Shown: positions 15,628 through 63,809 of the stretch, piece after piece | Numbering within the stretch: position 1 is the first letter of the stretch | Layout of the letters: the number at the start of each line of letters is the position of its first letter | Source of the DNA: Pyrenula massariospora | Lineage: Eukaryota; Ascomycota; Eurotiomycetes; Pyrenulales; Pyrenulaceae | Assembly: GCA_021030905.1 (NCBI GenBank) | Contig: JAGFMI010000009.1 | Span: 434,001 to 498,000 of the forward strand | Direction of reading: 5' to 3' | DNA: 64,000 nucleotides | Translations under genes and position numbers: made by a program | Notes under the pieces: model-generated | Databases searched by the model: none | The model's input: only the letters and a program-made list of their open reading frames with translations | Told to the model about the DNA's origin: nothing

Positions 15628-16405
15628 AAGGCGGAAGGAAACTGTGGAGCTAAATTCGTACACTTGCGCTATAAACTTTCTGCAAAGAGAGGTTCATTGT
15701 TCTTCCCTGACTGGGCCGTAACTATTTCAAAACATGGTCTAGAAAGAGCTTTTGCTAAGCTCGCGGTTGGTTGCAGAGAAGAGACTTTTCGCTGTGGAAA
15801 TATTCTTAGCTTGGATGGTGACATATTATGGGCTCTAGATGGTTCGGTTGAAGTTTATGTGGACTGGGGCGGCTGCGAGAAGATTGATGCACTATGCGCA
15901 GGGGTGGTCATCCTGAAACATCATTGTCTATCTGCACCATAGCCGACATATCACTTGGCGGCAGAGAAGGGCCATCAATCGCACGTCGACCGGCGAAGCA
16001 AGACTGTCAATAACCACCCTTCTAGATCCAGATACTCATCAAAAGACGATCATACTCAAACCCATCAGACTTGAGACAAAAGATACTGCATTCAATTAGA
16101 AAGGTAGTAATGCTTTTCCGCACCGACATCTCCCACCGGCCCACTCCCACAATAACTCCAACATTATATCTAGTTTGGTCAGGCTAGGATAGTAAAATGC
16201 ACCGTACCCAAAACAATAGTCCCGACCCGATGCGGAAAAAAATCTTTTAGATATACAGGTCAGATTCCCACGCAGCCCAACCCACGCACAGCAAGAACCG
16301 TAATGGTCTGGATCCATTCGCTCGCAAATGCACGGATGCTCATACGTATACATGGCCATATCGCAACGCCACGCCAATTCAGCCCAGGATGATACACGGA
16401 AGCGA
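15628..16405. other. convergent intergenic region
   Basis: Lies between two genes that point at each other, so it should hold both 3' UTRs. A 92-codon frame at 15664-15942 lacks an ATG start and any known motif. A leftward frame to 16096 that looks like an extension of the kinase gene is intron read-through, not coding. Confidence 0.55.
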
Positions 16406-19400
16406 TCACACCTCCATGATGTCTTCCCCGCCCTTCCCGTCTCTGTCTCGTTCATCCGCGATCCCGTCAGCAGCAAAAAGCGCCCTCTTCTCGATGGACG
16501 CGCGGAATTGATGCCAGCAACTACCAAAATTAGCACACGACCAACATTCGGAGAAAAGATTACCCACTTCGGCGCCTCAAGCACATACCGCCCCATCGCC
16601 TCGCGAAACCTCTTCTTATACTCCTTCGGACTCGTCACCGTCGGCCGATTCCTCCCGCCCCCCCCACCCCCCAGCCCCCTCTCCTTAATCCAACTCTCCA
16701 ACTTCTTATCCCACGTATACGTCCTAATACAATCGATAATGCCCACCACCAACTCCTTCCGCATCTCATCAATCGCCACCATCAAGCTATAATCCATCAC
16801 ATTCTGCCGCGCCAAAAACAGCGTATCATTGTGCACACTCCCGCGCAGCAACTTCTTCGAATGCTCCCTTGCAAACAGCGGGCTCTCGTAGATGAAATCG
16901 ACCATGTTCTCGTCGAGCAGCACCTCCCCCCCCGCGCCCGTGCTCTCCACTTTGCGGTTGCGCATGCTGCCTTTCAAGTCAAAGATGCGCGTCGGCACCC
17001 GGTCGTAGAAGAGGTTCTCCATCACGAGCAGGAACCAGTTGCACTCGACGCCGGTCACCGGGTTCTTAATCACGACGTTATAAAAGCCGAGCATCTTGGC
17101 GATGACGGAGGGCAGTTCATGAAAAAAGGCTTCGGACATGATTTGGAAGTAGGCGGGGGCGAATTTGAGAAAAGCTTGGGTCTCGATGGGGGATAGTGAT
17201 TTGAGGACGAAGCGGTCGTCGAGCGTTTTGAGAAACAGAGATTTGGTTTTGCCGCCCTTGGAATCCCATTTGAGGCAGCGGGACAAGGACTCGACGATAC
17301 GGTCGCTGACGCCGCATTTTCGGCGGACGGCGTCGAATTGCTCGGCGAAGAAGATCTTGCAGAGCATTTTGGCCGGGCCTTCTTGGAACTGGTATCTTAA
17401 GTGAGTTCCAGTTGCACGGAGGAGGGAGTGCATCACATCGGCTTGGTTTTCTTCGAGTCCGCCTTCTGAATGTGGGGGAGGATTTTGGATTTCGGGATGC
17501 TGTTGGATGGACAAGAGTTTGGATTTGTAGTCGGCTGAGTCGAGAGCAAAGGCGATTAGAGAGGAAGGCTCATCCTCGCGGACGATGATATCGCTATCGG
17601 CGAAGATATGGTCGGATGCGCTCAAAGGGTAGTCGAGGGGGGCCCAGCCACTGGCAGAACGCTCGGCCCAGAAGGCAGTGAGTATTTTCATGAGAGACGT
17701 GCGTTCATTTTTTGGGAGTTCTTTTAGATCGATGTCATCGGCTGTCATCTTGGCGAGGTGTTCTGGTGTCTCTGGAATTGGCATGTTATCTAAGAAAGAT
17801 TGTTCAGTTTCGCTTTGATCTTCTTCCGTCTCTGACTGCGTTTTGCTCGTTTCCATTGTTTCTGGCTCGCCCTCGGTCGTCTCTGCTGCTGCATCCTCAT
17901 GATGAAAGGTCTCGTCTTTCGTAGGACTTGTCTTGGCCATTCCAGTCGCTGTGTCGATCGAGACACCAGACTCGTCCATCTGAGACGGCATTGAGTCTGG
18001 GAGCTGCTCTTCCTGAGAAAAACTTTCATCGGACGTCTCTTTTTCCTCAACGGCTTCATGAACATTTCTATACACTTCAACAATTGGCTTTGAGGAAGCT
18101 AGTGGATACACCCTTGAATGCCTCGATCTTGCAGCTCGCTGTTTACGTTCCTTCATGCGCTCTTTCTCGAATTCTCGGCTAAGCTGCTCAAAGTGCTTTG
18201 CAAGGTTGGTGACACGCGTGTCTTTACGGTTTGCTACCGACCTCGGTATCAAAGAGTGGCCTTTGCTTAATTTGCCGTGTTTGAGATGGCTTAAGCCGAA
18301 CCGGTCTGACAGCTTCTTTTCGCTTGCCTTCTGGTGACCTTCAACCCCATGCGGAGTAGGCGTCTTTGGGGTTCCAGATCCAAATCCTTGTGTAGCTGTG
18401 ATTGCTTCTACAGGACCACTTGAGCTCTTTTCACGTCGGAGACTAGGCGCAGCAGGTTGGGATTGGGCCCGAATCAATGGCGGCGAAGGGCCAGCACCAG
18501 CGACAGCCGCCCGTCGAGTAGAAGGGTCAAGAGGTCGTGGTATGGCAGATGGTTGCTGACTAGGCTGTGCTCGATGTGAAGCATCTTGACTCTCATCTGC
18601 TGAGATTTCACGCCCGTCACTTTTGGATTTCGGCGCGATAGCGGGACCTTCCTCCTTTCCGCTACCATTAGACGTGTCGGAGGATATTTTAGAAATGGGG
18701 GGAGATTGACCAATTGATTTGCCATCGCTTTCTAGACTTGTTTGCGACTCTAGCCCAGGAGGGAGAGCAAGATCAAGATGTCTAACATCGGGGGTAGATT
18801 GTGGAGGAGATACCGAGGTGCTCAAAGTCTTGTCAAGATTCATTTCCGGAGCCGGCGCAATCGCCTGGGCTGTATCGTTAAGTAGAGTTCCAGAATGCTC
18901 CTCTACAACAGACTGTAGCACATTCTGCGTTTTTTCTGGCGACAGCTGTGTCAGCTTCCTAGGCCTTGTAGGTCGCGAAACTGGGTCAATGCCGATAGCC
19001 CCCTCACTTTCTAACTTTTCGTTAATAGCAGCATCATGAGTATCAGAGGTAGGCGTAATCGGTGCGTCATCCGTCGACGTTAGAGAGGTGACGGATATAT
19101 CTCGATCAAGGAATATTTTACTTAGCTGCAAAGTGGCGAGCCGTCTGATATCCTTCTCAGATGGAAAGAAGTTTCTTTCAAACTCAGCAAAGGTCGCGTC
19201 CCATTCCGCCACTTTTTCTTGTGTGAATCTCATGGCTCGGTTCAACGGTATTGTCTCCCAATGTCGCGAATTCACATACCGGTCTTGGAGTTGCCTGATC
19301 AAATAGACATGCTCTTCACTGGCGCGCTTCGCTAGCTTTTCAATTTCTTGCTTACAAGCCTCGACCGTCTCAGGCAATACAGCTGCTGAATTGATTGCTT

Positions 19401-25280: not shown

Positions 25281-28200
25281 ATGGAACGGGGCCTCCAGAA
25301 ATGGATGCGCTCGCTTGTTGAAGATCGACTCAAGAAATGCATCGGAGTCACACGCAGCGACGGCGTTGCGGAAGAACGCGGGAACGAGCTTGGTATCAAA
25401 CAAGACTTGAGCAATCTCTACATCTCAGTACCCTCAGGGAGCCACGTGCAAGCCTTAAGAGTACGCAGATCCCACGTCAATGAAGAAACATACTAAAGCA
25501 ACATACTTCTAGTGGTCGTCCAATTCTTCAGGCTTGAGCGCCATCGCCTCAGACTCGGAGTCATTCATTACCATGGAGTTTGACCCGCCTGCCGAGATCG
25601 CTTTTCGCAAGTGCATTGATCAGGAATCAACAGATATTGAAGTAGCCGTCGTCTTGAAGCTAGAGGAGAGCCAGATCCGAGTGACCGACTGCTTCTCTCC
25701 TCCAAGGCTCTTCCTATGCGCCAAAAGAATCGATGTCCGGAAAGAAAATAGCAATCTCAGTTTCGGTGCATCTCGAAGGCTTGTTGAACAGGGCAACATA
25801 ATACAATTAATATCAGCATACAGTGTTTGGAAACAAGACGATGACAACTCGAGGACCAACGGTGGCATATCTGCAGAGCAGTGTGAATCTCAGAAAAATG
25901 ACCACGTAACGTTACGATCGAGCTCAGATGAAGGCTATAATTCGTCGGCTGAGTTAGCCACCCAAATTCGTCCTGCCAGAATAACGAGCACGTCACACGG
26001 ACCGAAGTCACACGCCGTTCAGCCCGACCGTGAAAAGCTAAGAGATATTTTACGCAGACAACGCCCAGCACCTCAGAAGAGTTCTACGCAAAAGGTTATG
26101 CCGTTAGTCAAGAGCCAGGATCCAGAAGCTGGAAAGGAAGCATGCTCGACTAGTAACGAACACCCGGATGTGGTCACGTTAGCCGACCGCCACGAGAAGG
26201 TCCCATCATCGCCTTCAAACCCGCTTTCTTCGAGTGCTGCCAAAATCGCTCCAAGTCCATCACCGAAACTCATTCAAAATGATCCTCATCCAAGCCCTAA
26301 GAGGGTCAACCCAGATATACAAGTCCCGGCTTCATCCAGTCCTCAGCTATCCAATCACCAGTCAAAAATTTCCTCGAGTAGAGCTACTAAAGTTTCTGAC
26401 TCTCAAGGACAAGAAAAAATTAATCAGCAATCTCCAGTTGACACTGGGCCCCAAGAAGAGAAGAAAGCAGTACATGAGCCTCAATCTACTTGGCAGAGAC
26501 CATCTCAGGAGATTTGGGAAGAGTACCGGGACTCGCTTGGAACAAATGGCTCCTTCCCACGTCACACAGTCCAGATACCAGGGACACAGGAAAACATGTT
26601 TGGCGATCACGCCTTCTATCCGCCTCTCCCGGGGAAAGGCAAGCCGAAGACCAACATACCTATCGCGCTATTATCCGCTATAACTGACTTTGTTGATTGT
26701 CTACACGAAGCTTCACCGGATCAGATGGAGATTGAAGAGCCGGAGCAGAAGCCTTCGGATGAAAAGGGGGACGAGGCTAATCGTAGTGAGAATGAAGACG
26801 AGGACGAGGAAGTTCCTCCTTCTCAATGGCCAAGCTCTCCCTTTCGACCTTCACGCAATACAAATGGAGCGGTAAATGAGCAACCTACATCCAGTCCACA
26901 CGATGTTGCGCAACCTCCGGTCTTCGAAATCGATAGTGACGAAGACGAAGGCGAAGTGTCAGTGTTCCAGTCGCCAAGCTCTCCTGCAGAAAGTCTACGT
27001 TTGCCACCAGACAGCAGTGCTATAGATGCAGAATCCATAGATTCTCCAGCAAGACCTCCAAACGAAGACCCATCTCGGTATGTTCAATCCACCGAAAATT
27101 ATACAACACCAAATGTCGATCTTGACCCCGAATACCAGTCCGAAGACAAAGTCTCTAATTCCGTCCAAAACAAAGACAATGTCCCAGTCTCACTGGCTGG
27201 AAGCCCAACAGACCGTTCTACAGAGGCATTTTCGCGACAAGAAGACGTAATAAGAACCACCCCTGACCCAATACCCAGAGAGCTCCCCAGAAGTCTTCTC
27301 AGCTCCCCTGAAATCCCATCTTCAAGATCCATTCTTGTACATCGCACGCCACCTCCTAGAGACAAGAGTCGTTCCACATCTGTTACTCCTGCACGAGGCC
27401 TCCTAACGCAGATCGCATCCTCACAACCCAATATCTCTCCGTCTTTGTCCGCCCACCGGAAGAGACCGCTAGTCATCTCCCCAGCCAAAATACCCGATTC
27501 CGTTAAGCATCCTAGACTTTCGTCCCCAGACCTATCTATTCCCATCAATTCGCAACACCCAACTGTAAAGTCGCGGAGAATAAAGGAGCAATTTCTGGCC
27601 TCGCTTGAGAAGCATGAAGATTCAATTAGTGCGATTGTAAAACCACCAAGGGTTCTTGATGAAGACTCAGACAATCCCACCGCCAAATCTCTCAAAGCCA
27701 AAGCTAAATTTCTAGCCGAGCTCCAAAAACCTGAGTTTGAAGCGCAGCGACCGGCTTCGCCTCCTTCCCCAAAACCGAACTCCATACCACTGTCGACGCC
27801 TGGTCATCCGCTTGCTCCAGGATCCAAAGAAAACTCCCCCGATCCTCTCGCATCGCCCTCACTTTCCACGCCATTCCTCGCTGACAGTTGCCATCCGCCT
27901 TCACCGGCCCAAAATCGAAAAGACTCATCATCGCCCTCGCAGCAGTCTCCACCTCCACCCACCTCGCCTCATAACCCTCCCACCCCTTCACAACCCCAGC
28001 CTGACCCCGCACCAGCCCCAAGACTCAAACTCTTCGACATCCTAGCCAAGCTGGGCAAATACCCCCCTCCGAAACCGGATCCGGACGTGCCCATGAAGGA
28101 AGCGCCGAGTCCCACCCCAAAAGCTGAGAGCGAGAATGAGGATGAAGATGAAGCGAAGACGTGGTACCACGCGCCGAACACGCCGTTCAAGATCTGGGCC

Positions 28201-28317
28201 GCGCAGTACAATGCGTTGCCGGGGGTGAGGAGGGAGAATGAGAGGGCGAGGGAGGAGTGGGGAGCGGTGGAGCTTGGGGCTTGGGGGGCTGCGTGGGAGG
28301 ATAGGGGGAGGCGGTGA
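25281..28317 (+). CDS. probable TPP1/Tpz1-like shelterin subunit (telomere protein)
   Basis: Exons 25281-25460 and 25513-28317 (994 aa). The 52-bp intron has an ACTAA branch site and a CTTCTAG acceptor. It joins GSHVQALR to WSSNSSGLSAIASDSESFI in frame. The N-terminal 170 residues follow the TPP1/ACD OB-fold pattern: W-x(4)-LVE near the start, VQALRW, SAIASDSESFI, then GNIIQLISAYSV. Such proteins bind Pot1 and recruit telomerase. The rest is long, disordered and rich in Ser, Pro, Asp and Glu, with many SP/TP sites that suit phosphorylation. The end (TPFKIWAAQYNALPGVRREN) is predicted to be folded and could be a partner-binding motif. The family call rests on pattern memory of weakly conserved proteins and could be wrong; the gene itself is certain. 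Confidence 0.6.
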
Positions 28318-28408
28318 GGAGGAGGTGATTGGTGGATGAGGAGAGAAAAGGTGGGGGATGGAATGAGCGGATGGATGCTTTGGTGCTGTGTGTGTGATTT
28401 GGGGGAAT

Positions 28409-28433
28409 GGGTTGGGTTGGGTTGGGTTGGGGG
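28409..28433 (+). repeat. (TTGGG)n short tandem repeat
   Basis: Four to five TTGGG units followed by a G-run. It resembles, but is not, the ascomycete telomere unit TTAGGG. Likely a simple repeat in the 3' flank. Confidence 0.8.
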
Positions 28434-28488
28434 TTTTGGGAGGAGAGACGAACCGAGGCGGTGAGGGGATGAAATGAACAGAATAGAA

Positions 28489-28514
28489 TGATACGATATG
28501 ATACGATACGATAC
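28489..28514 (+). repeat. (GATAC)n microsatellite
   Basis: Five imperfect GATAC/GATAT units in tandem. Confidence 0.8.
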
Positions 28515-39369: not shown

Positions 39370-39833
39370 TCCATGATACCCATCCTCCGACAGTTTGTGA
39401 ACATTCGCGGCGTCTGGGCGCTTGCGAGCATCATTTCCCGAGAATCATAGAATTATGAGAGAAATAGAAATCTCGGGCAAAGAAACAATCAACTGTCCAA
39501 ATTTCAACACAGGTAATGCCACGATGCGATGACAGGAGAAACGCGTCTCTTTATAGTCACGTAAACGCGTGTCAAGAATAGCTCGATGACGTAGGAGCGC
39601 CAAGGAAACTTCGCCAGAATAGCGTCGCATAATCCAGTCATCTTTGCACTGGTAAATTATTGACCTCTTAAGGTTGCCTGAGGTCTCGGACTAGGCAACA
39701 GCTCTGTCATTGAATATGTTCCATTGCAGTCTATCCACTTCCTAATGCTTTGCGCAATCCACCACTCCCTCCAACCCTACCAGCGACCTCGAGCCCCCTC
39801 CCCCTCCCCGATCCCCTGCGATAAGCCCCAACC
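39370..39833. other. tandem intergenic region and promoter of rad2
   Basis: Lies between two rightward genes. No coding signal. The final 70 bp are C-rich and run into the C-rich start of the next gene. Confidence 0.5.
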
Positions 39834-42800
39834 ATGGGCGTAACCGGCCTCTGGTCCATCGTCTCCCCCTCCGCGCGCCCCATCAAGCTCGAGACCCTCG
39901 CCCACAAACGCCTCGCCGTCGACGCCAGCATCTGGATCTACCAGTTCCTCAAGGCGGTGCGCGACAAGGAGGGCAACGCCCTGCGCAACTCGCACGTCGT
40001 CGGCTTCTTCCGCCGGATCTGCAAATTGCTGCACACCGGGATCAAGCCGGTGTTTGTGTTTGATGGGGGCGCGCCGGCGCTGAAGAGGCGGGTGATTACG
40101 GAGAGGAAGAGGAGGAGGGAGGGGAGGCGGGAGGATGCGAAGAGGACGGCGGCGCGGATGATGGCGGCGCAGATGCATAGGCGGGCGGAGGAGGAGGAGG
40201 TGAGGAGGAGGGAAGAGAGGGAGAGGGGGGTGGCGAGGGAGGAGGAGGAGGAGGAGCCGTTGCCGGAGGATTTGGTGTATGTGGATGAGATTGGGATGTC
40301 GGCGAGGGAGAGGCAGCAGACGAGGAAGTTCAAGAAGACCGATGCGTATCACCTGCCGAATCTTGATATTAGTTTGGAAGATTTGGGCGCGCCGAATGAT
40401 CCGAGGATTATGAGCCATGAAGAGCTGGAAGAATATGCAAGGCAGTTCCAGAGCGGAGAGGATATTACACAATATGACTTTAGCAAAATCGATTACGATA
40501 GTCCTTTTTTCCTTAGTCTGCCTGCTACCGACCGCTATAATATCCTGAATGCTGCGCGACTACGGAGTCGTCTTAGGATGGGCAAGACGAAGGAACAATT
40601 AGACGGCATGTTTCCTGACCGCATGGAGTTTTCAAGATTTCAGATCGAAAGGGTCAGAGAAAGGAATGAGTTGACACAGCGACTCATGCATATCAATGGG
40701 ATGAGCGAGGATTTCCTGAGTCAAGGTGGAAGAATCGCTGGTGAGAAGGGCAAAGAGTATATTTTGGTGAAGAATGACGGCGTGGAAGGGGGCTGGGCGC
40801 TTGGAGTAGTCTCAAACAAGTCAGGGCAGGAAGATCAGCCGATCGACCTGGACCTTGATATGTCGGATGTCAAAGAATCCGAGGATGGCTGGGAAGATGA
40901 TGATGACTTCGAGGACATACCCATAGAGGGGCTGAATCGATTACCGAAGAAGTGGGCAGGAAAGAGGAAGGTAGAAGATTACAATACTGATTATGAAGTG
41001 GCTGCACGAGAGATTGCGGAAAAGCGCAAAGCCATCTACGAAGCCAGGGCAAAGGCCACCGCTACTCGGACCACCCGAGCGTCGCAGCCTTCGAAGCCTC
41101 GTACTGGTCAAGATGATAATTCGTTGTTTGTGCCGGAGCATATAGCGAACCCTCCCGTTCACGAGGACGATGATGATGAGCTTTTCGAAGACGTCGATGT
41201 GAACCAGGTCGGCAGTGAGGATGAAGACCTTGAGCGTGCTATCCAGATGTCATTAGAAAAACCAGAAGAGGGCGATTCTCATAATGGAGGCTTCATAACC
41301 GACGCTTTCAATCAAAATAATGCGAGGTTAGGGCGCGAGGCGGCTCATCAACTCAACGCACGCTCGAATGGTGCTGGGAAAAATGGCGTTTCGCCGCCAT
41401 TGAACATTGACGAGGACGAAGACAGCGATTTGGACCTTCAGGCAGCGTTAGCGGAATCTCGTCAATCTAAATACCAACCTAAAGGACCTATTCGTACAGA
41501 ACGACCACAATCACCTAGTGCTAGACCCTCCAAACCTGCATCCAATCAACAAACAGGCCAGTTCTCCGGGCCGCTACCATTCGAGTCACTCAGTCTTGGG
41601 CAATCTCTACTTGGAAAGAAGAAGTCGCAGCGAATCGAAGAACAGATGTCTGGCGGCTTTGACAAGGACGAGACCGCGAAGACCAAGGATGCAAATCGAG
41701 CTCTACCTCCGTGGTTCAAGGATAAAGACAAGGAGGATCAGTCACCTGACAGAGAATTGTACACATTCGACGAGGAGTCGGATGAGCTACCTCCAGAGCC
41801 GACATTTGAAAGGCAGAAGATACGTCGAAATGAAACACGAGAGATCATCGACGTAGATGCTGAAGAGGAAAAGGCGACAAGTGTGATTGATGTCGAAAGT
41901 GATGTGGAAGACCAACAGTATATGCCAGACAGTCCAGAGTCCCATCAAGATGAAGCCATCCAACCACACAGCCCTAAGAGCGACAAGTCGGTCGAGGCAC
42001 AACCGCTGATGGGTGACTTGGCAGATCTTATCCGTGCGGAGCCGCCGCAATCAGATTTACCACCAACAAACTTACAGCCTACCAGCGATCTGCATGATGA
42101 TGTTCAGACTGAGAAGTCAGTACAGGCCCCGCTGATTGCACAAGACGATGATGAACCAATTGAATGGAGCGAATCTGAAGACGAAGACGCTCACCGACCG
42201 CGTGTGAGTACTACAATGGCTGAGAAGGTTGATAGAAACCACTATGAGCCGCATAATCCAGCGAGCCCTCTTGTCAAAGAAAGGAATTCTACCTCGCCAG
42301 ACGAGCAACGGCCGAGCGAGCAGTTACTAGAAGCAGAGGAAGATGATGTTGACTTCGAGGATGTTGATGCTCCTCCTCCAGCCCTTCTTCGCCAAGAAAC
42401 CTCTATGAACCTAGAACAACAAGCAGAAGCCAACCAATATCTCATAGCTGACGATGACGAAGTAAGGGAGTCTGAGAATACCGCTCCGACTATCCAAGCC
42501 CCCGAGCAGCCAATGCCGGATGACGACGAAGATCAATTCATGTACGATTCAGAAGACGAGGAACTTTTAGCCCAAATGGCCGCCGAAACCGAAGCCCACG
42601 CAGAATTCACCTCCACATTCAACAACCGCAGCACAGCTGAGAATCTCGCTGCGTACGAAGAAGAGCTTAAAAGACTACGAAACCAACAAAAGAAGGACCG
42701 CCGAGATGCCGACGAAGTAACAAGCACAATGGCCACTGAGGTACAAGCTTTGCTCGGTCTGTTTGGGCTGCCATATATCACAGCGCCCATGGAAGCCGAA

Positions 42801-43838
42801 GCACAATGTGCTGAGCTGGTACGTCTCGGACTAGTTGACGGGGTCGTGACAGACGACAGCGATATCTTCCTCTTTGGTGGAACGCGCGTGTACAAGAACT
42901 TCTTCAACGGCAAGAAATTTGTTGAGTGCTATCTAGCCGCTGATCTAGAGCGTGAGTTCAACCTCTCGCGCAAGAAACTAGTCGCTTGTGCGCAGGTCCT
43001 AGGGAGCGATTATTGCGACGGGCTGTCGAACATTGGACCTGTGGGCGCATTAGAAATCCTCGCCGAATTCGGCAACCTCACCGATTTCGCGGAATGGTAC
43101 AACAACGCCTACTTCCAGGACCCAAAGGCCATCAAGAACGACACCTCACTCACCCCGTGGAGGAAGAAGTTCCACAAGCGCCACGCGACAGGCGGGTCAA
43201 AGGGTCTGCTCCTCCCAAACTCGTTCCCGAGCCAAGCGGTCGAAGACGCGTATCTCCACCCCGAAGTCGATTCCGATCCCACGGGCTTCCAGTGGGGCGT
43301 GCCGGACCTGGACCAGCTGCGGAGCTTCCTGATGGCGACCATCGGGTGGAGCCGGGAGCGGACGGACGAGATTCTCGTCCCGGTGGTGCGGGATATGGGG
43401 AAGAAGGAGAGGGAGGGGACGCAGGCGAATCTGACGAGGTTCTTTAGTGGGGCGGTTGGGGTGGGGGTTAGGGGGGTGAGAGGGGAGGATCGGAGGGGGA
43501 GGTTGGGTGGGGTGGAGGTTGGGGCGCCGAGGAGGGTGGCGCCGAGCGGGAGGATGGAGAGGGCGCTGGGGAGGTTGAAGGGGGTGGAGGAGAGGAATCG
43601 ACGAGATAGGGGTGGTGGTGATGCTGGGGAGGCTGCGGATGGGGAGATTGGTGGGAAGGGAGCTGCGCAGGATGGGAGGGGGAAGCGGAAGAGGAATGTA
43701 CAGCCGGCGGCAAAAGCAAATGCGAAGCGCAAAGGCAGGAAGGGAGCGAAGAAGTCGAAACGTGCTTACACGGGTGACTCTGATGACGACATAACGATGT
43801 CTGACAAAGGTAGCGACATGGATGAAGATGGGAATTAG
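39834..43838 (+). CDS. rad2: Rad2/XPG structure-specific endonuclease (nucleotide excision repair)
   Basis: A single exon of 1334 aa. The XPG N domain (residues 1-105) begins MGVTGLWSIVSPSARPI and has LAVDASIWIYQFLKAVRD and FVFDGGAPALKRR. A long acidic, disordered spacer follows, as in all Rad2/XPG proteins; it carries TFIIH- and PCNA-type interaction segments in homologues. The I domain (about 967-1095) has MEAEAQCAELVRLGLVDGVVTDDSDIFLFG with the metal-binding acidic residues. The helix-two-turn-helix DNA clamp reads GSDYCDGLSNIGPVGALEIL. It makes the 3' incision in excision repair. The C-terminus is basic with several KRK clusters for nuclear import. Codon choice is odd: strongly C-ending in the first 65 codons, then abruptly G-rich, with a second switch near 43.33 kb. 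Confidence 0.95.
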   Translation: MGVTGLWSIVSPSARPIKLETLAHKRLAVDASIWIYQFLKAVRDKEGNALRNSHVVGFFRRICKLLHTGIKPVFVFDGGAPALKRRVITERKRRREGRREDAKRTAARMMAAQMHRRAEEEEVRRREERERGVAREEEEEEPLPEDLVYVDEIGMSARERQQTRKFKKTDAYHLPNLDISLEDLGAPNDPRIMSHEELEEYARQFQSGEDITQYDFSKIDYDSPFFLSLPATDRYNILNAARLRSRLRMGKTKEQLDGMFPDRMEFSRFQIERVRERNELTQRLMHINGMSEDFLSQGGRIAGEKGKEYILVKNDGVEGGWALGVVSNKSGQEDQPIDLDLDMSDVKESEDGWEDDDDFEDIPIEGLNRLPKKWAGKRKVEDYNTDYEVAAREIAEKRKAIYEARAKATATRTTRASQPSKPRTGQDDNSLFVPEHIANPPVHEDDDDELFEDVDVNQVGSEDEDLERAIQMSLEKPEEGDSHNGGFITDAFNQNNARLGREAAHQLNARSNGAGKNGVSPPLNIDEDEDSDLDLQAALAESRQSKYQPKGPIRTERPQSPSARPSKPASNQQTGQFSGPLPFESLSLGQSLLGKKKSQRIEEQMSGGFDKDETAKTKDANRALPPWFKDKDKEDQSPDRELYTFDEESDELPPEPTFERQKIRRNETREIIDVDAEEEKATSVIDVESDVEDQQYMPDSPESHQDEAIQPHSPKSDKSVEAQPLMGDLADLIRAEPPQSDLPPTNLQPTSDLHDDVQTEKSVQAPLIAQDDDEPIEWSESEDEDAHRPRVSTTMAEKVDRNHYEPHNPASPLVKERNSTSPDEQRPSEQLLEAEEDDVDFEDVDAPPPALLRQETSMNLEQQAEANQYLIADDDEVRESENTAPTIQAPEQPMPDDDEDQFMYDSEDEELLAQMAAETEAHAEFTSTFNNRSTAENLAAYEEELKRLRNQQKKDRRDADEVTSTMATEVQALLGLFGLPYITAPMEAEAQCAELVRLGLVDGVVTDDSDIFLFGGTRVYKNFFNGKKFVECYLAADLEREFNLSRKKLVACAQVLGSDYCDGLSNIGPVGALEILAEFGNLTDFAEWYNNAYFQDPKAIKNDTSLTPWRKKFHKRHATGGSKGLLLPNSFPSQAVEDAYLHPEVDSDPTGFQWGVPDLDQLRSFLMATIGWSRERTDEILVPVVRDMGKKEREGTQANLTRFFSGAVGVGVRGVRGEDRRGRLGGVEVGAPRRVAPSGRMERALGRLKGVEERNRRDRGGGDAGEAADGEIGGKGAAQDGRGKRKRNVQPAAKANAKRKGRKGAKKSKRAYTGDSDDDITMSDKGSDMDEDGN

Positions 43839-44079
43839 GCATGTAGTGATTTAAATGCCATCTTGTACCCCTGCTATCTACAGTATCGTCCACGAGATAT
43901 CTCATCCTCCAAACCCCCCAACACGCAGTGCGAGATCACGCATCCCCCTCCCCCTCCCCTCCCCTTACCCCCCTCTACGCCCTCCTAACACCCACCCCCT
44001 CAACCCCACGCTCTCCACCAGCCCCCTCGCGCCATCCGCAATACATCAGCATCCGCTCAGCATCCTCTCATACCGCTGC

Positions 44080-44587
44080 TCATCGTTCCTCCCCTCTCCC
44101 CAGCGCGTCCGCGAGCCGGACGGCGATTGCGCGGTTAGCGGCGGAGTCGTGCAGGAATGTGAATGAGCATGCGAACGGGGTGATTGTGGTGGTAGGGGAG
44201 GGGAGACTCGATGAGGGATTCTTCGACGGCGAGTTCTGCGGGAGTGGTTGGGCAGCTTGGAGGACGGAGGTGGAGATCAATTGCGGTGGCTGCGGTGAGT
44301 ATGTTCGTGCCGGTTTGGGTATCGAGCGGGTGGAAAGGGGAAGGGGGGGCTATGTGGTGGATTGTTGTTGCGCCGTGGGCGAGGGGGGCGGATTGGGCTG
44401 GGGAGGTGAGGTCGGCCGGCTTGGAGGACTTCGGCTTTGGGGTGGGAGGTGCGGTGGTGGTGAGAGAGTGGGAGGAGTTGACGGCGAGGCGGAGTTTGTA
44501 GGTGAGATTCGTGGAGTTGTAGAGGAGGGGGGTGAGGCGTTTGGCTTGTTTGCCGGAGGCGCAGGTTAGGACGATGAGGTCTTCCAT
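44080..44587 (-). pseudogene. NmrA-like NAD(P)-binding protein relic
   Basis: The N-terminus reads MEDLIVLTCASGKQAKRL, followed by YKLRLAVNSS, ADLTSP, HGATTIHHIAPP and TNILTAAT, which is an NmrA/SDR-type Rossmann start. Then the middle of the fold is missing: the frame jumps to VEESLIESPLP, which in intact proteins lies some 60 residues later. The typical SFTFLHD block follows in another frame (to 44080). A run PPTPKPKSSKP replaces the expected KYPKAEVLQ, which is still readable one frame over. So there are at least two frame changes and one deletion. The region is extremely C-rich and then G-rich on the + strand. A functional short gene with unusual introns cannot be excluded. Confidence 0.55.
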
Positions 44588-49739: not shown

Positions 49740-50235
49740 AGTGAAACCATCACATAAGAATTTGGATTTTCCCACGGATTGTGCTTTTCATAAGTAAAAT
49801 CAACTTCTTTCAACTGCCAACGGCCGCCTTTGGAGAACCTTAGGTCTAGAAATCCGTCTGTGAAGACCTTGACCTATAGAGATTGGAAGTGGGTATCTAT
49901 AATGCCTTCTGAGACATTTACCCAGCTCCATCTTCGCGGATCATCTGAAGAAAGGGGAAGAAGCAGCTCTTGGCTCAACAAGTTGAGATGGCCCTCCAGG
50001 TCTAGGGAGCCAGCCTGAAATCTATCTGAACGCGGACAGGTCCTTGACTCGGACCCATTAAAGAGGTTGGTATCGTCGATAACCTTCTCAGCTTGTATAT
50101 TCTAACGTTAGAAGAGATGTTGCTACGTCCGTGCAAGATGAACACGCGTCTAATTTCATAGCGTCTGCCGTACCAATTCCATCTAAACTCGCTCCAGCCA
50201 ACGATAACAACCAAGCCAGAAGTACAATTGGTATC

Positions 50236-53951: not shown

Positions 53952-54649
53952 TTATGTCCGCCTTGCCATCTTCGGAAGGCCGGGGTGACTCTCCAGAGTG
54001 CTCTTACAGCATTTCCACGATCGTGATGGGTGGAACAAATCCATCTTCAGGGTCAATGTGCTGCTAACGTTCACCATCAAGGCTTTGCGGCGTCTTTATC
54101 ACCGTCGACCAAGGCTCTCGGGAAACATATAGATATCTAGATCATGATTATCAGGCCACTCGCCCAATTCTTTATATCAGGACCCCCGCCATCAAGTATC
54201 ACGAAGTTGAGAGAGGGAAGGTAGAATTTATCAATCATTTTGAATAATTTTAATACTATAAACTACTCTTGAGTCCTTATAACTTGGAGCCCTATTCTGC
54301 AATATTAGACTATTGCATACACACGCCTCTAAGGTGTGGTCGCTCAATTTCGCCTAGCGCCACCCGCTCATCAACTCATGCAGAGAGGCGTCCGTTGACC
54401 AATCCTCGACGACGTGCAAAACTCGAGGTGGCTGCGACTGCAGCCGCAAGGCTGCCAGGCTGCGTTTCTTGAAAGCTGCCATATTTTCCCTTCCTTAATT
54501 GCCTTGATGCTTCGATAAAGTCACGCCGACCATATTGCGTTGTACGTCTTTCATTGCAGGAGCAGAAGCTCAATGATAAATTTCGATACCGAAGTACCCC
54601 AGCGGCCGCCAGCAAGACAACCGGTATTAAGTGCTGCCTTTAAGCCTCA
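53952..54649. other. spacer between the two NLR genes
   Basis: Mostly AT-rich at 54180-54330. No coding signal. Presumably holds the promoter of the second NLR. Confidence 0.5.
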
Positions 54650-57600: not shown

Positions 57601-58261
57601 GCCAGAGGATCCTAATCTTCTGAGTTCGCAGCACGAGCTCTCTCGTATGTACTGGGATGATGGACGGAGAGTGGAGGCAATGGAACTGATGGAACATGTC
57701 ACCCGAGCCCGAGAGAAAATACATCCGCAAGAGCATTTTCGTCTTTTAAATTCGCAGCATCGGCTTTCTACAATGTACTGGGATGAAGGACAGAGATCAA
57801 AGGCATTCGAATTAATGAAACACGTCACTCGAGTTGGAGAGAAAACATATCCGCAAGAGCATTCTCTTCTTTTAGTTTCGCAGTACCAGCTTTCTATAAT
57901 GTACTGGGATGAAGGGCAGAGATCAAAGGCATTGAGGTTAATGGAACATGTTGCCCGAATCAACGAGAAAATCAACCCGCCAGGCCATCCTCATCGGTTG
58001 CAGTCACAGGGTCGACTTGCTCGAATGCGTGCAGAATATGATGGACCCTCAAATGAAGAGACAGAGAGATCTGATATTGGAGATAACCTCCAAGAACGAG
58101 ACATGCTTACGCCGTCCAGAGAATCCCTTGACTTGAGAGACTCTGGGCCAGAACGACGATTATTATCTGTGTCGCGAGTAGGAAAGCTACATCTGCTGCA
58201 CAAGTGGAGGGTGGCGCTTCCTATTCTCAAACACAGGAAAAATGAGCAGTTAAGAACCTGA
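54650..58261 (+). CDS. PNP-NB-ARC-TPR NLR (STAND protein)
   Basis: Exons 54650-55610 and 55665-58261 (1185 aa). The 54-bp intron (donor GTTAGA) joins SAEEAIR to ENGRKPFHHIPFTRNHRFVG in frame. The purine nucleoside phosphorylase-like domain occupies about 10-305 (YTVGWVCALHIELAAAQVML, VGIGGGVP, GDVVVS, CFEMEAAGL, IRGICDYADSHKN). NB-ARC follows, with P-loop VGLGGIGKTQVA near 365, Walker B LLIIDNAD, VFTSRNQ, and LENLPLAIAQAAAYI in place of GLPLA. From about 765 to 1110 there are 42-residue TPRs, the last six very similar to each other. This is the architecture of fungal NLRs related to HET-type and VIP-like non-self sensors. The role is inferred: ligand-triggered oligomerisation and a cell-death or immune output, with the PNP-like domain as effector. 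The frame looks intact. Confidence 0.92.
57362..58030 (+). repeat. tandem 126-bp coding repeats (TPR units)
   Basis: Units of 42 codons, each with QHELS/QYQLS, MYWDEGQRSKA-type and LMEHV blocks. The units around 57.78, 57.90 and 57.66 kb share long identical DNA stretches (e.g. ATGTACTGGGATGAAGG and CAGAGATCAAAGGCATT), while earlier units have diverged. The outer TPR copies thus look recently duplicated or homogenised. Confidence 0.85.
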
Positions 58262-58560
58262 CCTGGAGATAAGCAGGAGAAGTCAGAATTTGGAGGCATT
58301 CTAGGTTAAGATATCTGCCAAAGCCCAGCCTAGATTCTTTTAAGATTTATCTGGCGACGAGATACATCAAGCTCGTTGAGCACATCTCCGGCCGTATACG
58401 AAAAACTTCTACTCATACTCTATGTAGTCACAAAGATCAGAAAATGTTGTCCGACTACATATGGTCCCTCGGCCAAAGCGACGTTTTTTTGTGGAATTTG
58501 TCATGCCTCACTCTGAGAAGGACTACCAAATTTTAACACCAAGATTTCGGCCCGTCTAAC
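58262..58560. other. convergent intergenic region
   Basis: Between the 3' ends of the NLR and the pirin gene. No coding signal. Confidence 0.5.
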
Positions 58561-59616
58561 TTAATTCGAATCCAAAACTACCACCTCTGCCTCCGCCTCT
58601 CCGACGCTTTCAAATGCAAGGCCGCTTCCGACATTGACCTTCTCCACATAAGCGCCATCTCCTTCGCTTAGAATTGAATCGTCACTCCCAGCGAGCTTAA
58701 TCTTCGCTTTTCCATCTTTGGTCATCGGGAGATGGACGTATACCTTTCTGCCAGCCGAGCTTGAGACTGCCCCCTTCGGCCCGCCCACCGTGTACTCGAA
58801 TTTCTCGCCCTTGGGCACAATGCCCGCGCTGAACACCAGGTCCGCATGAATCGGAATCGTGCCCTCCACCGCCGGAACAGCCGCCTGTTCCTCCTCCTTC
58901 GACGCATTAATCCCCGCCTTCAACGGACTAATAATCGTCACAAACCCCTTCCTCTTCCGCCCCTCATCAAACGTCTCGGTATGATACGTCGGCCTCAACC
59001 CCCTCTTCCACGGCAACGCCCAGATCTGCAAAAAATGCACCTCCTCCAGCTCACTCTCATTCTCCTCTGAATGCGCAATCCCGCTCCCCCCCGTCGTGAA
59101 CTGCACATCCCCCCTCCTCATCCGATAGAACATATCCTTATTACCCCCCGACCCGCCTTCGGCGCCCTTGCGCAGCATCGAGTCGCGGTGCGTCAGCTCG
59201 CCGCCGAGGATGTAGGAGAAGATCTCGGCGTCGCGGTGCGGGTGCGTGGGGAAGCCGCTGAGGGGCGCGACGCGGTCCTCGTTGAGGACGCGCAGGGCGC
59301 CGAAGGAGGTGTGGGCCGGGTGGTGGTAGGAGGCGAAGGAGAAGGTGTGGTAGGTGTTGAGCCAGCCGTGGTGGGCGTGGCCGCGGGCGGAGGAGGGGCG
59401 GAGGGTGATCTTGGGGGTGGACATGGTCGGTTTGGTGGCGGCGGTGCTGGTGGTGTTGAGGGCTTTGGATATGGCTTGTTTTAGGGGTGCGGTCATGAGA
59501 TTTTCTGGTATGAGATGGTGGAGGTCGAGCGTAGATAGAGTGAGCGCGATTGCAATGGTTAGAATAGCTGTGATTGTAAGTATGCTGGTCAATTGGAGGG
59601 AAGAGGCATGAAGCAT
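58561..59616 (-). CDS. pirin-family cupin (quercetinase-like)
   Basis: A single exon of 351 aa. From about residue 65 (MSTPKITLRPSSARGHAHHG) the sequence is a bicupin of the pirin family. The metal site appears as PTHPHRDAEIFSY with two His, LTHRDS, and GIAHSEENE (His and Glu); HFLQIWALP and a weaker second cupin follow. Pirins bind iron in the N-terminal cupin; fungal members have been proposed as nuclear cofactors or quercetin dioxygenases, and the sequence alone cannot decide. The first 60 residues are unusual: they hold a hydrophobic helix (ILTITAILTIAIALTLSTL), which suggests a signal anchor or organelle presequence. Alternatively the true start is the Met at about 65. Strong C-to-G skew switch on the + strand inside the gene. 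Confidence 0.9.
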   Translation of the reverse strand: MLHASSLQLTSILTITAILTIAIALTLSTLDLHHLIPENLMTAPLKQAISKALNTTSTAATKPTMSTPKITLRPSSARGHAHHGWLNTYHTFSFASYHHPAHTSFGALRVLNEDRVAPLSGFPTHPHRDAEIFSYILGGELTHRDSMLRKGAEGGSGGNKDMFYRMRRGDVQFTTGGSGIAHSEENESELEEVHFLQIWALPWKRGLRPTYHTETFDEGRKRKGFVTIISPLKAGINASKEEEQAAVPAVEGTIPIHADLVFSAGIVPKGEKFEYTVGGPKGAVSSSAGRKVYVHLPMTKDGKAKIKLAGSDDSILSEGDGAYVEKVNVGSGLAFESVGEAEAEVVVLDSN

Positions 59617-60077
59617 AGGGAAAGGGCTGGCTATTTGTATGAGCAGGTCGTCGAACGAGAGGGATCTACGATGTTCTTGAAAGACTTTTGGTCTTTTGGT
59701 ATAGCTGACTACGAGATCATATTAGTTTATATCAGCAGCATTCATTCAGATTTCGGCGAATCAGCCGAACGTAGTAGTGGCGGTAGTGTATATTTGAACA
59801 GTCAGCGGTTGCAAATCAATTGGAAAGCGGAGGCGAACGCCAAACTCGAATAGAGACTAATCCGAGTATGTCTTAGCGGCCTATGACGGAGCCTATAAAG
59901 GGTAAAGCCTAAATAGACCAGAACTAATCTTGAATTGGAATAGGATCACAGACGGATCAAGGAGATGGAAGTAGGCTATTCTGCTTGTTTACGACAGATC
60001 TGAGGTGATCTGACCGCATGCCAATATTAAGTCTATAATATATATATTTTTTCATGCTGAGAAATTTCTCTGATCGT
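59617..60077. other. intergenic region upstream of the tRNA gene
   Basis: No coding signal. AT-rich just before the tRNA, including an ATATATATTTTTTC stretch at about 60040-60052. Confidence 0.5.
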
Positions 60078-60205
60078 GCCCATTTGGCGCAATGGCAGCG
60101 CGTTAGACGTACGCTACACGATCCACATTGCAGAAACAATTGCTGAGTTTAACTTAGTTCTACATTGAGATCTAAAGGTTACGAGTTCGAGTCTCGTAAT
60201 GGGTA
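60078..60205 (+). tRNA. tRNA-Arg(TCT) with a 49-nt GT...AG insertion and a 7-nt intron
   Basis: The acceptor stem GCCCATT (60078-60084) pairs with AATGGGT (60198-60204), discriminator A at 60205. D arm GCGC-loop-GCGC; T arm ACGAG-TTCGAGT-CTCGT; A box TGGCGCAATGG and B box AGTTCGAGTC are good. Anticodon stem TTAGA (60103-60107) pairs with TCTAA (60171-60175). If 60109-60157 is removed, the loop reads C-T-TCT-A, then CATTGAG (60163-60169) as the normal intron after position 37, then A. This gives a standard seven-base loop with anticodon TCT. The extra 49 nt between positions 32 and 33 begin GT and end AG. Eukaryotic tRNA introns lie only after position 37, so this is either a pseudogene or a very unusual interrupted tRNA. 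Confidence 0.75.
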
Positions 60206-60208
60206 ATC

Positions 60209-60213
60209 TTTTT
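60209..60213 (+). terminator. Pol III terminator of the tRNA gene
   Basis: A run of five T three bases after the discriminator base, the usual RNA polymerase III stop. Its presence argues that the locus was, or is, transcribed. Confidence 0.75.
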
Positions 60214-60665
60214 GTTTATCTCTATTTTTCGTTCATCTTTATTTGAAGTATTCAAACAATAATGTTCACACTGTCTTCGTTACAGTGTGAAGGTGGGCCG
60301 ACAGATGCCAAGACTTAGCCTGTCGTGGACCCTAAGCGGCTGTATGTTAAACGATACCGCTAGATGGCCTACATGCGAGCGCACGATCGTCATTACCATT
60401 ACTGAACAGAAGTAAGATCATTGACAGTGTTCGTAAGCTCTATCTCGTCAGCCCAAAGATTCTACGACTCTACGGGCCGGCGATTCATGTACCCACCCGC
60501 CCATCGCGACTTCAGCCTGGCCGTGCCTGCCGTAGGAAAGGCATCGCCTGGGAAATGGAAGGCAGAGATGCAGTATGCTCTTTCCCATTGGCCAATTCAA
60601 CTCAAAGATAGGCAAGCAACCCGCTTCTTTGTCTCTTCTCATGGCATCCCTGCATCATTGTCGAT
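60214..60665. other. intergenic region
   Basis: A perfect CACTGT/ACAGTG short palindromic pair near 60268-60289 and an 82-codon frame with no ATG context or motif (60421-60669). No supported gene. Confidence 0.45.
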
Positions 60666-61733
60666 ATGAATAACCGCAAGCCCTCCATCCTATGGAATCT
60701 CGTGGAGTTCATTTTGTCGTCACTGTGGCTTTCTATACTTATTGCTTGCCTCGTTATCCTCTCAGCTTGCTCAATACCCCTCCTCTTCATTTACATCTTC
60801 ATCACCATCTTCAGCCTCAGAAAAGAAATCTACTGTTTCCTAGCCTTAAAGGCAGCCAATAGCTTAATCGACTCAATCCCACCATCAACCCCACAACACC
60901 AACCAAACCCCCCAGACCCTCTCACAGAGCTCACCGCAATACTCCACGAGCTCGCCCATCCACCCGACACCACCACCAACAACGATAACAACAACACCAT
61001 CCCCTCCACCCCACCACCCCCCTACACCGACACCACCACCTCCATGCCTCCCCACCAACAACCCCCCCGCCTCCGCACCCAAGGCCCCCGCGACCCCTAC
61101 CGCAACCCCCTAAACTTCTTCCCCCTCCGCCTCCCCCCCACCCTCACCCTGCACCCCCCAACCCCCCAACCCTCCTCCCCCTTCCTCACCCTCCCCCTAG
61201 AACTCCACCTCGCAATCCTCACAACCCTCGACTTCGCCGACACCCCCCTCCCCTTCTCCCGCGGCGGCACCCACACCTCGACGCAAATCGCCCTCGCCCT
61301 CACGTGCCGCCAGCTCGCGGCCGCCGCGGGGATGGTGGAAGTGGTTGTGCCGCGGCGGCGGACGAGTTACCATGCTTGGCTTGTGGGGAGGGTGTTGAGG
61401 GAGTGGCTGTTCAACAGTAGTACGACGATGAGCGCGTACTGTCTAAGGTGTCGACGGTGGAGGGCGCGCAAGGACTTTCTCCCCCCCACCATCCACCACC
61501 ACACCAGCGTCAGCGTAATGCCCTCAAGCGGCTGGCACGCGCACAAGCTGCTCCGCGAGAGGGGGGAGCCGGAAAGGCCGGGGTGGTGGTTCTGGTGCAG
61601 ATCTTGTCGGGGGGTTGCGGTGGGCGGGAGGGGGAAGGGGGTTTGGGTTTGGGATGCGCGGTGGGGACAGAAGGTTCGGTGGGGGGCTGAGGGGGGGTGT
61701 GTTTTGGAGGTTGAGAGATCTGAGGGAAAGTGA
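60666..61733 (+). CDS. membrane-anchored F-box-like protein
   Basis: A single exon of 355 aa. Two hydrophobic helices near the N-terminus (LVEFILSSLWLSILIACLVI and LFIYIFITIFSL) are followed by a Pro/Thr/Asn-rich linker of about 100 residues. An F-box-like motif follows at about 180 (FLTLPLELHLAILTTLDFAD). The C-terminal part has two CxxC pairs (YCLRCRRW and FWCRSCRG), the same layout as the small F-box protein at 30.2 kb. A membrane-tethered Skp1 adaptor is a possible reading. The linker's Pro codons come from a run of extreme C-richness, and the sequence flips to G-rich at about 61.33 kb, so part of the composition may be mutational rather than functional. Target unknown. Confidence 0.65.
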   Translation: MNNRKPSILWNLVEFILSSLWLSILIACLVILSACSIPLLFIYIFITIFSLRKEIYCFLALKAANSLIDSIPPSTPQHQPNPPDPLTELTAILHELAHPPDTTTNNDNNNTIPSTPPPPYTDTTTSMPPHQQPPRLRTQGPRDPYRNPLNFFPLRLPPTLTLHPPTPQPSSPFLTLPLELHLAILTTLDFADTPLPFSRGGTHTSTQIALALTCRQLAAAAGMVEVVVPRRRTSYHAWLVGRVLREWLFNSSTTMSAYCLRCRRWRARKDFLPPTIHHHTSVSVMPSSGWHAHKLLRERGEPERPGWWFWCRSCRGVAVGGRGKGVWVWDARWGQKVRWGAEGGCVLEVERSEGK

Positions 61734-62353
61734 AGTGAGATGTGAGGGTAAGGAAGGGGAGGGGAGGGGAGGGTGGTTTGGGGGTTTGTGCGCTGGTTGG
61801 TGGATGGATGGATGGATGGATGGAGTTTGGGCCGGGCGATGTTGCTGTGGGGTGTTTGTGGTATTCTTTGCTGTTTCTGTTTCTGTTTTTGTTTCTATTG
61901 CTTACAGTATGGATGGGGCATCAGGTTCAATTCACGCATTAATGCGGTAAATGTAATACAGTTGATGGATCGACGAACATGAATCTCCGGTGCTGAACTA
62001 ATAGAAAGGATATCATTATTCTGCACGGTGTTGCCTGGCTAGCTAGATAGCTATCTAACCATTTCCTCCCGCTCTAGGCCACCCACCCGCACGTCCTCAT
62101 CATTAGCAGCACTGCCATCTCGCTCGCTTCGCTCTCGGGGAATGCCCAGATCAAATAGGATCCGAAAAACAGGTACATTAAAGTAATGAAAAGATTAGGG
62201 GGGTTATGCAGCGACTCGACAACACCACCTCCTCAGCTCCGTCTGCACGACTTAAGAGCAAAGGTTCCGCTTTGTTCAGCTCAAATATCCCGCTTCAGCT
62301 CAAGTGATGAACCAATTCAATACCCGCGATCAAAATACCCGCAGTAACCGCAC
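61734..62353. other. convergent intergenic region with a tetranucleotide repeat
   Basis: G-rich at the left end, with six tandem GGAT units at about 61800-61824 and a GTTTCT/TTTCTG run near 61870. No coding signal. Confidence 0.55.
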
Positions 62354-63809
62354 CTAAGCGGCAACCGCCTCCCTCTCGCCCTCGCGGCCCCTAGCCTCGC
62401 CATTCGCAACTTCGTCCTCTTCTTCTTCCTCTTCTTCCTCGGCCTCGTCCTCGGCGTACTTGCCATGTCGCTCCGCGCTGACCCAGGAGTCCCTATCTCC
62501 CTTCAGCGGCGCATCTTGGCCCGCAAGATCGATGCCCTCAGCTGAGCGTTTCGCAGCATTGGCCTTTCGTCGTTGGCTGAGGGTGCGGGAGCGGGTGCTG
62601 AGCTTGGAGGAGACGACGGCGTTGGATTGGACCCAATTGGTCAGGGAGTCCTCGCAATCTTGGATGATGGCTTTGGAGGCTTCGTAGCCGTCGTAAGCGT
62701 TGCGTGTTTCGCCAGGGGTGACGGGGGTATCGTCTACCAGCTCGAGGAGGTGCTTTCCGTAGCCGGCGATAATGGCGAGTTTCTCGCAGTGCTCTCTCAT
62801 CGCATCGAATTGGTACGTGAATGCCGCCTTCAGTTTCTCCCTTGTGATGTTGCTCAATTGTGCCTCTGCGACTAGACTCTCCGCCTCGGCACGCACAAGC
62901 TCTTGCTCCAACACGACGATCCGTGGCGAATTGGGTTCCTTGTATTTGAGCTGGGCGATCTGGTCGGTGATCTTCTGCTTGCGATCCCGAGACGGTTGGA
63001 CGGAAGCCTCGATGTTACGGATCGATTTAATCGTCACACGGTATTGGTCGTAGCGATCGACGTATTGGTCTTCGAGCTCACCAATTTCGTAGATTAGGAC
63101 ACCGAGCTTGTCGGTCACGTCGCTGACATCGTCATCGCAGGCTTCGCCCCAGATGGAGAGTTGTTGCTATCAAAATCTATGAGTGACATGCGTAGGCGGG
63201 GAACTGAGTAATAAGGTAAACTCATACCGCAACGTCCATGCGTTCTCTTCCCACAAGTTCCATGCTACGCATAACGTTTTTCTCCATCTTAACAAGCTGT
63301 GAGAGCTTCTTCGCAAGGTCAGGGCCAAAGGCACCGGCGGTCTGTTTTCGAAATGCATGACCTATGGATGATGACAATATGATCAGCCTTGGGTATCGCA
63401 GTGTAAGACCAAAAGAGGAATGGTAGCTTGAATTCTGGGACATAGCGTTTCGATGTAAAGCCGGCGATCCACGATAGCCTGGCTAAGCTCATCGAGAGCT
63501 GACAAAAATCGCAATGGATAGGTGAGGCAGGGTAAGCAGACGCCAGCAACGGAAATATTGTGCATGTTTCGATGCAAAGGCGTCCCGGACACATTCCAAA
63601 GCGCTTTAAAGATCCCGTCTCACAGAATGAGAGATGACCAAGCCTAAGCGCTAGATGCTGCCATGATGTGTTGCGCTTGGAGCTCACTCACCAATGTTGC
63701 CCTTTCCAAAAAAGCGTCCGGCCTTAGTGGACGAGCTTGGAGGTGGTGGATTCTCGATCTGCGAAGCCGTGGGTGCACGCGATGCGCGCATAGAATACGT
63801 GCGATGCAT
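62354..63809 (-). CDS. pil1: eisosome core protein Pil1/Lsp1
   Basis: Exons 63809-63692, 63361-63228 and 63166-62354 (354 aa). Introns are 330 and 61 bp. The N-terminus MHRTYSMRASRAPTASQI, then PPPSSSTKAGRFFGKGNIG-HAFRKQTAGAFGPDLAKKL, is nearly invariant in this family. The BAR domain follows (QLVKMEKNVMRSMEL, QQLSIWGEACDDDVSDVTDK, IRNIEASVQPSRDRKQKITDQI) and a phosphoregulated C-terminus ends in a Glu-rich run. Pil1-type proteins coat the plasma-membrane furrows called eisosomes (MCC domains) and respond to sphingolipid and TORC2 signalling. The length matches other Pezizomycotina PilA proteins. The long first intron is common in this gene. Confidence 0.95.

Follow-up and report, generated by a model that had tools for sequence, protein, structure and literature searches.

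The DNA analysed here (the window) is a 64-kb stretch of the Pyrenula massariospora genome, positions 434001–498000 of its contig in an assembly of 37.8 Mb and 33 contigs, and carries a fab1-like gene, rad2, a pirin gene, pil1, and several reading frames without Pfam match (coding sequence was called by a simple codon model, and gene names come from Pfam profile matches). At eight points in these genes and frames, the + strand turns from C-rich to G-rich (C>G switches; Table 1). Switches were scanned for with 300-bp arms, F being the G-C count of the right arm minus that of the left, at F of at least 95 with at least 20 per side, and change points were fitted by likelihood with 2-lnL (log-likelihood) support intervals. 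The sequence-only reading had described about eight such flips, and the scan found exactly those eight, the one near 62.55 kb being the weakest, as described. Their support intervals span 16–106 bp, so the turns are sharp. Chance is rejected as the cause, since 60 local order-2 Markov simulations of the window yielded no switch of either direction at F of at least 95 (top F 87, versus 206 observed).

Table 1. The eight C>G switches of the window, with their gene context (strand in brackets)
Switch	Scan position	Extent	Change point	Context	Further results
1	16950	16500..17400	16954	3' part of fab1-like gene (-); matches FYVE, Cpn60_TCP1, PIP5K	G/(G+C) 0.25 left, 0.60 right; synonymous permutation p 0.0025
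2	28131	27730..28480	28221 (support 28118-28223)	3' part of reading frame (+) without Pfam match	
3	40037	39740..40340	40049	rad2 (+), 5' end, in XPG_N domain	Permutation p 0.0025
4	43343	43140..43740	43382	3' part of rad2 (+)	Scan and change point
5	44148	43880..44570	44118	3' end of called segment, small reading frame (-), convergent with rad2	
6	59179	58780..59620	59206	Inside pirin gene (-)	Permutation p 0.0025
7	61301	60860..61860	61304	Reading frame (+) without Pfam match	G/(G+C) 0.13 left
8 (weak)	62522	62330..62720	62541	3' part of pil1 (-)	Scan and change point

The frame at switch 5, previously read as an NmrA relic, has no Pfam match, and that at switch 7 had been read as F-box-like. 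The G-rich arm of switch 2 continues about 160 bp beyond the stop codon, its non-coding part being A.18, C.03, G.54, and T.25 (n=129), and the G-rich arm of switch 7 also passes the stop. Short tandem repeats of GGAT and GGGGA are visible by eye in the latter arm (61740-61830). G>C switches are present too, three in the window at F of at least 95 (43754, 61948, and 11702), the strongest of which (43754, F 205) lies between switches 4 and 5.

The scan was extended to 18 of 19 sampled 10-kb stretches, which together with the window make 244 kb; the remaining stretch, L011, was left out for its GC content of 20%. The C>G and G>C switches numbered 32 vs 25 at F of at least 80, 30 vs 20 at 95, 25 vs 10 at 110, 20 vs 8 at 130, 13 vs 5 at 150, and 11 vs 1 at 180. 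The C>G excess resides in the strong switches, and weak thresholds give closer counts. The earlier statement that the order is always C then G needs correction, as G>C switches also occur. Several G>C turns are flanked by C>G switches on both sides (43754 in the window, two in L014, and one in L016), an arrangement that short arms would require. Among isolated switches, with no opposite switch of F at least 80 within 1 kb, C>G outnumbered G>C by 8 to 4 at F of at least 95, 5 to 1 at 130, and 4 to 0 at 180.

Cleaner evidence on one-wayness than these skew-selected counts is given by strand-blind peaks, the maxima of synonymous-site GC picked without regard to skew. At a peak height of at least 0.75, 14 of 15 turn C>G (binomial p 0.001), and the sole exception (L008, 5220) lies 402 bp away from the L008 switch at 5622. 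The same turn was found for 10 of 10 peaks at 0.80 or above (p 0.002), 17 of 20 at 0.70 or above, and 22 of 27 at 0.65 or above. In a synonymous permutation test, which keeps the amino acids and scores one switch per gene in coding segments of at least 800 bp (the called segment of switch 7 is shorter and lies outside it), C>G switches were significant in 18 of 54 segments at p<0.01, so amino-acid content alone is rejected as the cause. The C>G and G>C segments numbered 16 vs 7 at p<0.003, 18 vs 13 at p<0.01, and 23 vs 19 at p<0.05, closer counts within genes that speak against strict one-wayness, and the largest statistics were 108, 100, 94, and 88 for C>G and 57, 55, and 52 for G>C. For pil1 (switch 8), the gene-wise test gave p 0.07 for C>G and 0.0075 for G>C. 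The switches are a real and strong feature of this genome and are one-way among the strong cases; their cause is not proven.

The base composition around the switches is nearly a mirror image. At third codon positions, the 30 C>G switches (F of at least 95) have A.15, C.60, G.17, and T.08 on the left and A.08, C.16, G.61, and T.15 on the right, compared with an overall background of about.23/.27/.27/.23. Third-position GC reaches 0.77 and 0.76 in the two arms versus 0.54 overall, a local rise of neutral-site GC, and is raised in the arms of the 20 G>C switches as well (0.67 left, 0.63 right). At two-fold sites, where only a transition is synonymous, C/(C+T) in the inner 300 bp on the left is 0.85-0.90 (background 0.54) while G/(A+G) is 0.25-0.52 (background 0.52-0.53); on the right, G/(A+G) is 0.83-0.90 and C/(C+T) 0.34-0.50. 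Thus, T gives way to C left of a switch, where A/G sites are little changed, and A gives way to G right of it, alike for genes on the + and - strands. Because the signal is carried by these transition-only sites, C-to-G transversion alone is rejected, and a TpG/CpG-type effect is rejected likewise, as the pattern at switches has no marked dependence on the neighbouring base. The third-position AT skew runs from +0.30 on the left to -0.30 on the right, opposite in sign to the GC skew; first and second positions show a slight reverse shift (-0.08/-0.06 to +0.10/+0.06), and no AT-skew turn appears in non-coding DNA around switches.

The GC skew at first and second positions shifts too, from -0.27/-0.40 on the left to +0.35/+0.35 on the right, giving protein tails that by eye are rich in Pro/Ser/Thr or in Arg/Gly/Glu. 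Selection on codons, protein tails, or messenger RNA structure could account for such a shift, but we regard it as highly unlikely, since the shift is greatest at third positions, is mirrored about a point, and is present both in non-coding DNA and in the sequence encoding the XPG_N domain of rad2.

The profile has a flat top of about 300 bp and has fallen nearly to background at about 600 bp (synonymous GC 0.53-0.64 beyond 500-600 bp), with a median skew reach of 270/240 bp. The sequence-only reading had proposed a process centred on the flip point with opposite single strands on each side, and this idea gains support from the near mirror-image substitutions, the rise in GC, and the reach of about 300-500 bp, which is similar on either side. 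It had offered replication origins or meiotic breaks as the process, and breaks fit better. Leading-strand G excess is the usual sign of replication origins, and under the REV1 rule a lesion base becomes G. At an origin or another site such as an R-loop or bidirectional transcription, single strands at the bottom left and top right, bypassed by a C-inserting translesion polymerase, would give the correct sign and, by reasoning, could lift GC. We consider this improbable: no kilobase skew domain is seen, the skew decaying within 300-600 bp, and GC content itself changes, for which leading/lagging differences cannot account according to the passages of PMC3845650. Nor would abasic-site bypass be expected to deplete T on the right about as much as C, as is the case at fourfold sites there (T.09-.15, C.10-.18).

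Six one-parameter rules were fitted to the composition, and "C favoured on the tail strand" (the top strand to the left of a switch, the bottom strand to its right) was the best, with log-odds of 1.8-2.0. Its Akaike information criterion was 5035 for the 30 skew-selected switches (next rule, 5549), 1731 for the subset with F of at least 180 (next, 1858), and 3688 for the 15 strand-blind peaks, where symmetric GC bias came next (3960). Choosing sites by skew favours the C-only rule and choosing them by GC favours the symmetric one, yet the C-only rule wins both among one-parameter rules. The sign of this rule bears on mutation of the resected single-stranded tails at breaks, by translesion synthesis or deamination. 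In the 2 kb flanking human hotspots, mutation is strongly strand-asymmetric, and the tail mutations described in the passages available are C>N and A>N, C>G and A>G being prominent among them (PMC7615360). However, tails that lose C and A and gain G would enrich the left top strand in G, contrary to observation (the sign is our reading of PMC7615360, which in those passages does not spell out the side), and deamination of C would also reduce C on the tail. A mutational origin of this kind is therefore very improbable. Neither this wrong sign, nor the GC rise, nor the lean of switches to gene 3' ends had entered the sequence-only reading.

That lean concerns the main rival, a transcription-linked cause in which a mutation regime or codon preference passes from C-favouring to G-favouring toward the 3' end of genes. 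We judge it unlikely, though it deserves serious weight. In the passages available, the fungal coding strand is reported to be C-biased at 5' ends and G-biased at 3' ends (McLean and Tirosh, 2011; PMC3315797), and such a pattern, read on the + strand, would come out as C>G whichever strand carries the gene. The earlier argument that genes on both strands exclude codon choice and transcription was thus a logical error: C-then-G is its own reverse complement, and gene strand cannot discriminate. Among 47 called segments of at least 900 bp, the mean coding-strand fourfold skew is -0.22 in the first decile and climbs to +0.16 in the tenth, as in McLean and Tirosh. With 800 bp round the switches removed, it flattens to a range of -0.23 to -0.02 with no positive decile, implying that the average gene skew here comes largely from focal points. 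Of the genes of 1.2 kb or more, 27 were tested and 10 have a significant C>G switch, at a mean relative position of 0.72 (p 0.002), and in eight of the ten the switch lies at most 720 bp from the 3' end, versus 3.5 expected (p 0.002; the cut was chosen post hoc). Here, the 3' end is the end of the called segment, with an in-frame stop within 45 bp in nine of the ten and at 402 bp in fab1. Convergent neighbours may each bear a switch with a G>C turn between them, as do rad2 and the next frame, and as in L014 and L007.

Several observations speak against such a cause. The turn is sharp and falls inside single called exons, presumably crossed by one transcript. The switches are near mirror-symmetric, with GC raised on both sides and arms that can run beyond stop codons, and of the two switches among the ten that lie farther from the 3' end, one is near the 5' end and one mid-gene (rad2 has a switch near its 5' end; pirin and L008 have one mid-gene). 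The third-position AT skew turns in opposition to the GC skew, whereas the published AT skew, in the passages available, is flat along genes and positively correlated with GC skew (PMC3315797). If the switches are not break sites, a transcription-linked process would have to reverse strand preference within one exon, which is itself unexpected.

We give about even chances to strand-aware GC-biased gene conversion around meiotic breaks as the maker of the switches. Each switch would be a site of recurrent meiotic double-strand breaks, at which 5' resection would expose a single-stranded tail of the top strand to the left and of the bottom strand to the right. Each 3' tail would pair with the homologue and form heteroduplex with mismatches, whose resolution would keep or gain C on the tail strand (T, A, and G yielding to C) over about 300-500 bp on each side. 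Over many generations, the top strand would accumulate C to the left of the switch and G to its right, with GC raised on both sides. The near mirror-image synonymous composition, the C>G excess among strong switches, the GC rise, and the fit of the C-on-tail rule are consistent with this scheme; the meiotic break at the centre, conversion as the force in place of mutation or selection, and the identity of the enzyme are what we infer. The geometry of a resected break, taken together with the observed composition, leads to the rule that C wins on the tail. We propose tentatively, with chances somewhat below even, that the repair of heteroduplex in this fungus has one preferred base on one strand, namely C on the resected 3' tail.

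Published work offers partial parallels, drawn here from passages of the papers. Mouse conversions, replicated in human data, point to a GC-restoring path on the recipient strand that perhaps acts on only G or only C (PMC6715734); with C as the restored base, the footprint seen here would follow. In yeast, C/C mismatches are repaired 3-5 times less well and G/T mismatches best (PMC3218862); by analogy, these efficiencies would push C over G and C over T and would not by themselves raise GC. In Zymoseptoria tritici (40-Mb reference), 1435 of 2578 hotspots lie in exons, and their density of about 64 per Mb (PMC5844332) is of the same order as that of the switches at F of at least 130 (20 in 244 kb, or about 80 per Mb, which would change with the threshold).

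A profile search of the genome gave matches above the cut-off to a Spo11-type protein (PF04406, on C22, part of the domain only) and to the MAT alpha box (PF04769, on C3), as well as two UDG-family matches, one of them MUG/TDG-like; these matches count for the break reading, with any link of the Spo11-type or MUG/TDG-like match to the switches conjectural. The stretch with the MUG/TDG-like gene (L022, C30) has a strong C>G switch (F 222) and a G>C switch (F 155), and that with the other UDG-family gene (L023, C3) has three of each at F of at least 80 (C>G 139, 124, and 81; G>C 132, 95, and 82); in L021 and L024 the scan found no switches at F of at least 80. A thymine-glycosylase mechanism was considered and rejected as sufficient, since on paper it gives an equal GC rise on both strands and cannot alone produce skew.

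A number of points weigh against conversion at breaks. The lean of switches to gene 3' ends, which it leaves unexplained, is the strongest point in favour of a transcription-linked cause. G>C switches were significant in 13 of the 54 segments at p<0.01, eight of which carry both directions. Shuffling synonymous codons within genes (40 rounds) kept a mean of 17.6 of the 30 C>G switches at F of at least 95, 11.8 of 20 at 130, and 4.1 of 11 at 180, and when non-coding DNA was shuffled as well (40 rounds), 6.5, 4.0, and 1.4 C>G and 2.6, 1.2, and 0.0 G>C switches were kept at these thresholds. The signal is shared among synonymous sites, non-coding DNA, and the composition of whole short segments, and part of it thus lies beyond synonymous choice. 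In the non-coding left arm, C rises from.24 to.41 chiefly at the expense of G (0.24 to 0.13) while T barely falls (0.26 to 0.25), unlike codon sites; part of this "non-coding" DNA is probably uncalled coding sequence. Two-parameter rules beat the one-parameter rule in every set, the better ones being C favoured plus T disfavoured for the skew-selected switches (5004) and GC over AT plus A/C over G/T for the strand-blind peaks (3508). With donor-directed mismatch repair alone, skew would arise but GC would not go up, so that two biases or a C-specific path are needed. According to passages of the respective papers, equilibrium GC in Zymoseptoria is weakly negatively or not correlated with recombination (PMC5844332), meiotic breaks in Saccharomyces cerevisiae are all but absent from coding sequence (PMC3020949), and in mouse cells single-strand annealing showed no bias to G/C (PMC9001825). 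The proposal also draws on the base composition of one genome.

Some features of the sample lie apart from the switches. The omitted stretch L011 (C10:100001-110000), in which one set of scan criteria gave no switch, contrasts in GC content with the rest of the sample (about 49%) and has a TpA/ApT ratio of 1.05 versus 0.66 in the window; it is an AT-rich block, perhaps altered by repeat-induced point mutation or centromeric. In the window, 50721-58261 holds long frames resembling, by eye, fungal NLR-type genes (NACHT with ankyrin repeats, and a nucleoside-phosphorylase-like frame adjoining an NB-ARC/TPR-like frame). A sequence like a transfer RNA (tRNA) with an apparent long intron was noted by eye at about 60084-60215; ARAGORN in bacterial mode called no tRNA in the window.

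It is unsettled what makes gene conversion prefer G and C and which enzyme is at work; a strand-resolved footprint shows the winning base and its strand, which a strand-blind GC rise cannot. If C is indeed favoured on the tail, the choice that the mouse and human studies leave standing (G or C on the recipient, not both) would be settled, and a single haploid genome would suffice to locate breaks by the C-to-G switches with a precision of tens of bases. An assembly alone would then reveal the hotspots of fungi, and perhaps those of other species whose hotspots are stable. The known fungal 5'-C/3'-G gene skew would become the average shadow of conversion, and the published skew would receive a different cause; the words recombination, meiotic, and gene conversion are absent from the text of PMC3315797.

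Among the titles, abstract starts, and passages listed from the open-access literature searched (with preprints and most subscription papers outside the scope), no strand-asymmetric conversion footprint in base composition was found; the gerbil study PMC7403616 was rejected as a precedent, as "GC skew" in its available passages means GC bias and not strand skew. The switches share with GC-biased gene conversion of yeast, mammals, and birds a local rise of neutral-site GC over roughly the length of a conversion tract, strong enough to move first and second codon positions. In contrast to the standard form, which treats both strands alike, C/(C+T) and G/(A+G) respond here on opposite sides. Strand-aware conversion has been proposed from mouse data, though not, in the passages available, as a base-composition footprint (PMC6715734). 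Strand asymmetry that flips at the break and reaches the resected flanks is also known from human break mutagenesis, where the sign, as we read the available passages, is opposite and the process is mutation rather than fixation (PMC7615360). The GC-skew flips of replication origins have the same C-to-G order on the top strand, whereas the reach here is much shorter and GC is raised. The gene-end skew of McLean and Tirosh, whose species list takes in filamentous ascomycetes, shows the same C-then-G order along genes and extends into 3' untranslated regions, as stated in passages of PMC3315797; unlike it, the signal described here is focal and sharp, is significant in a third of the coding segments at p<0.01, comes with raised GC, and turns the third-position AT skew.

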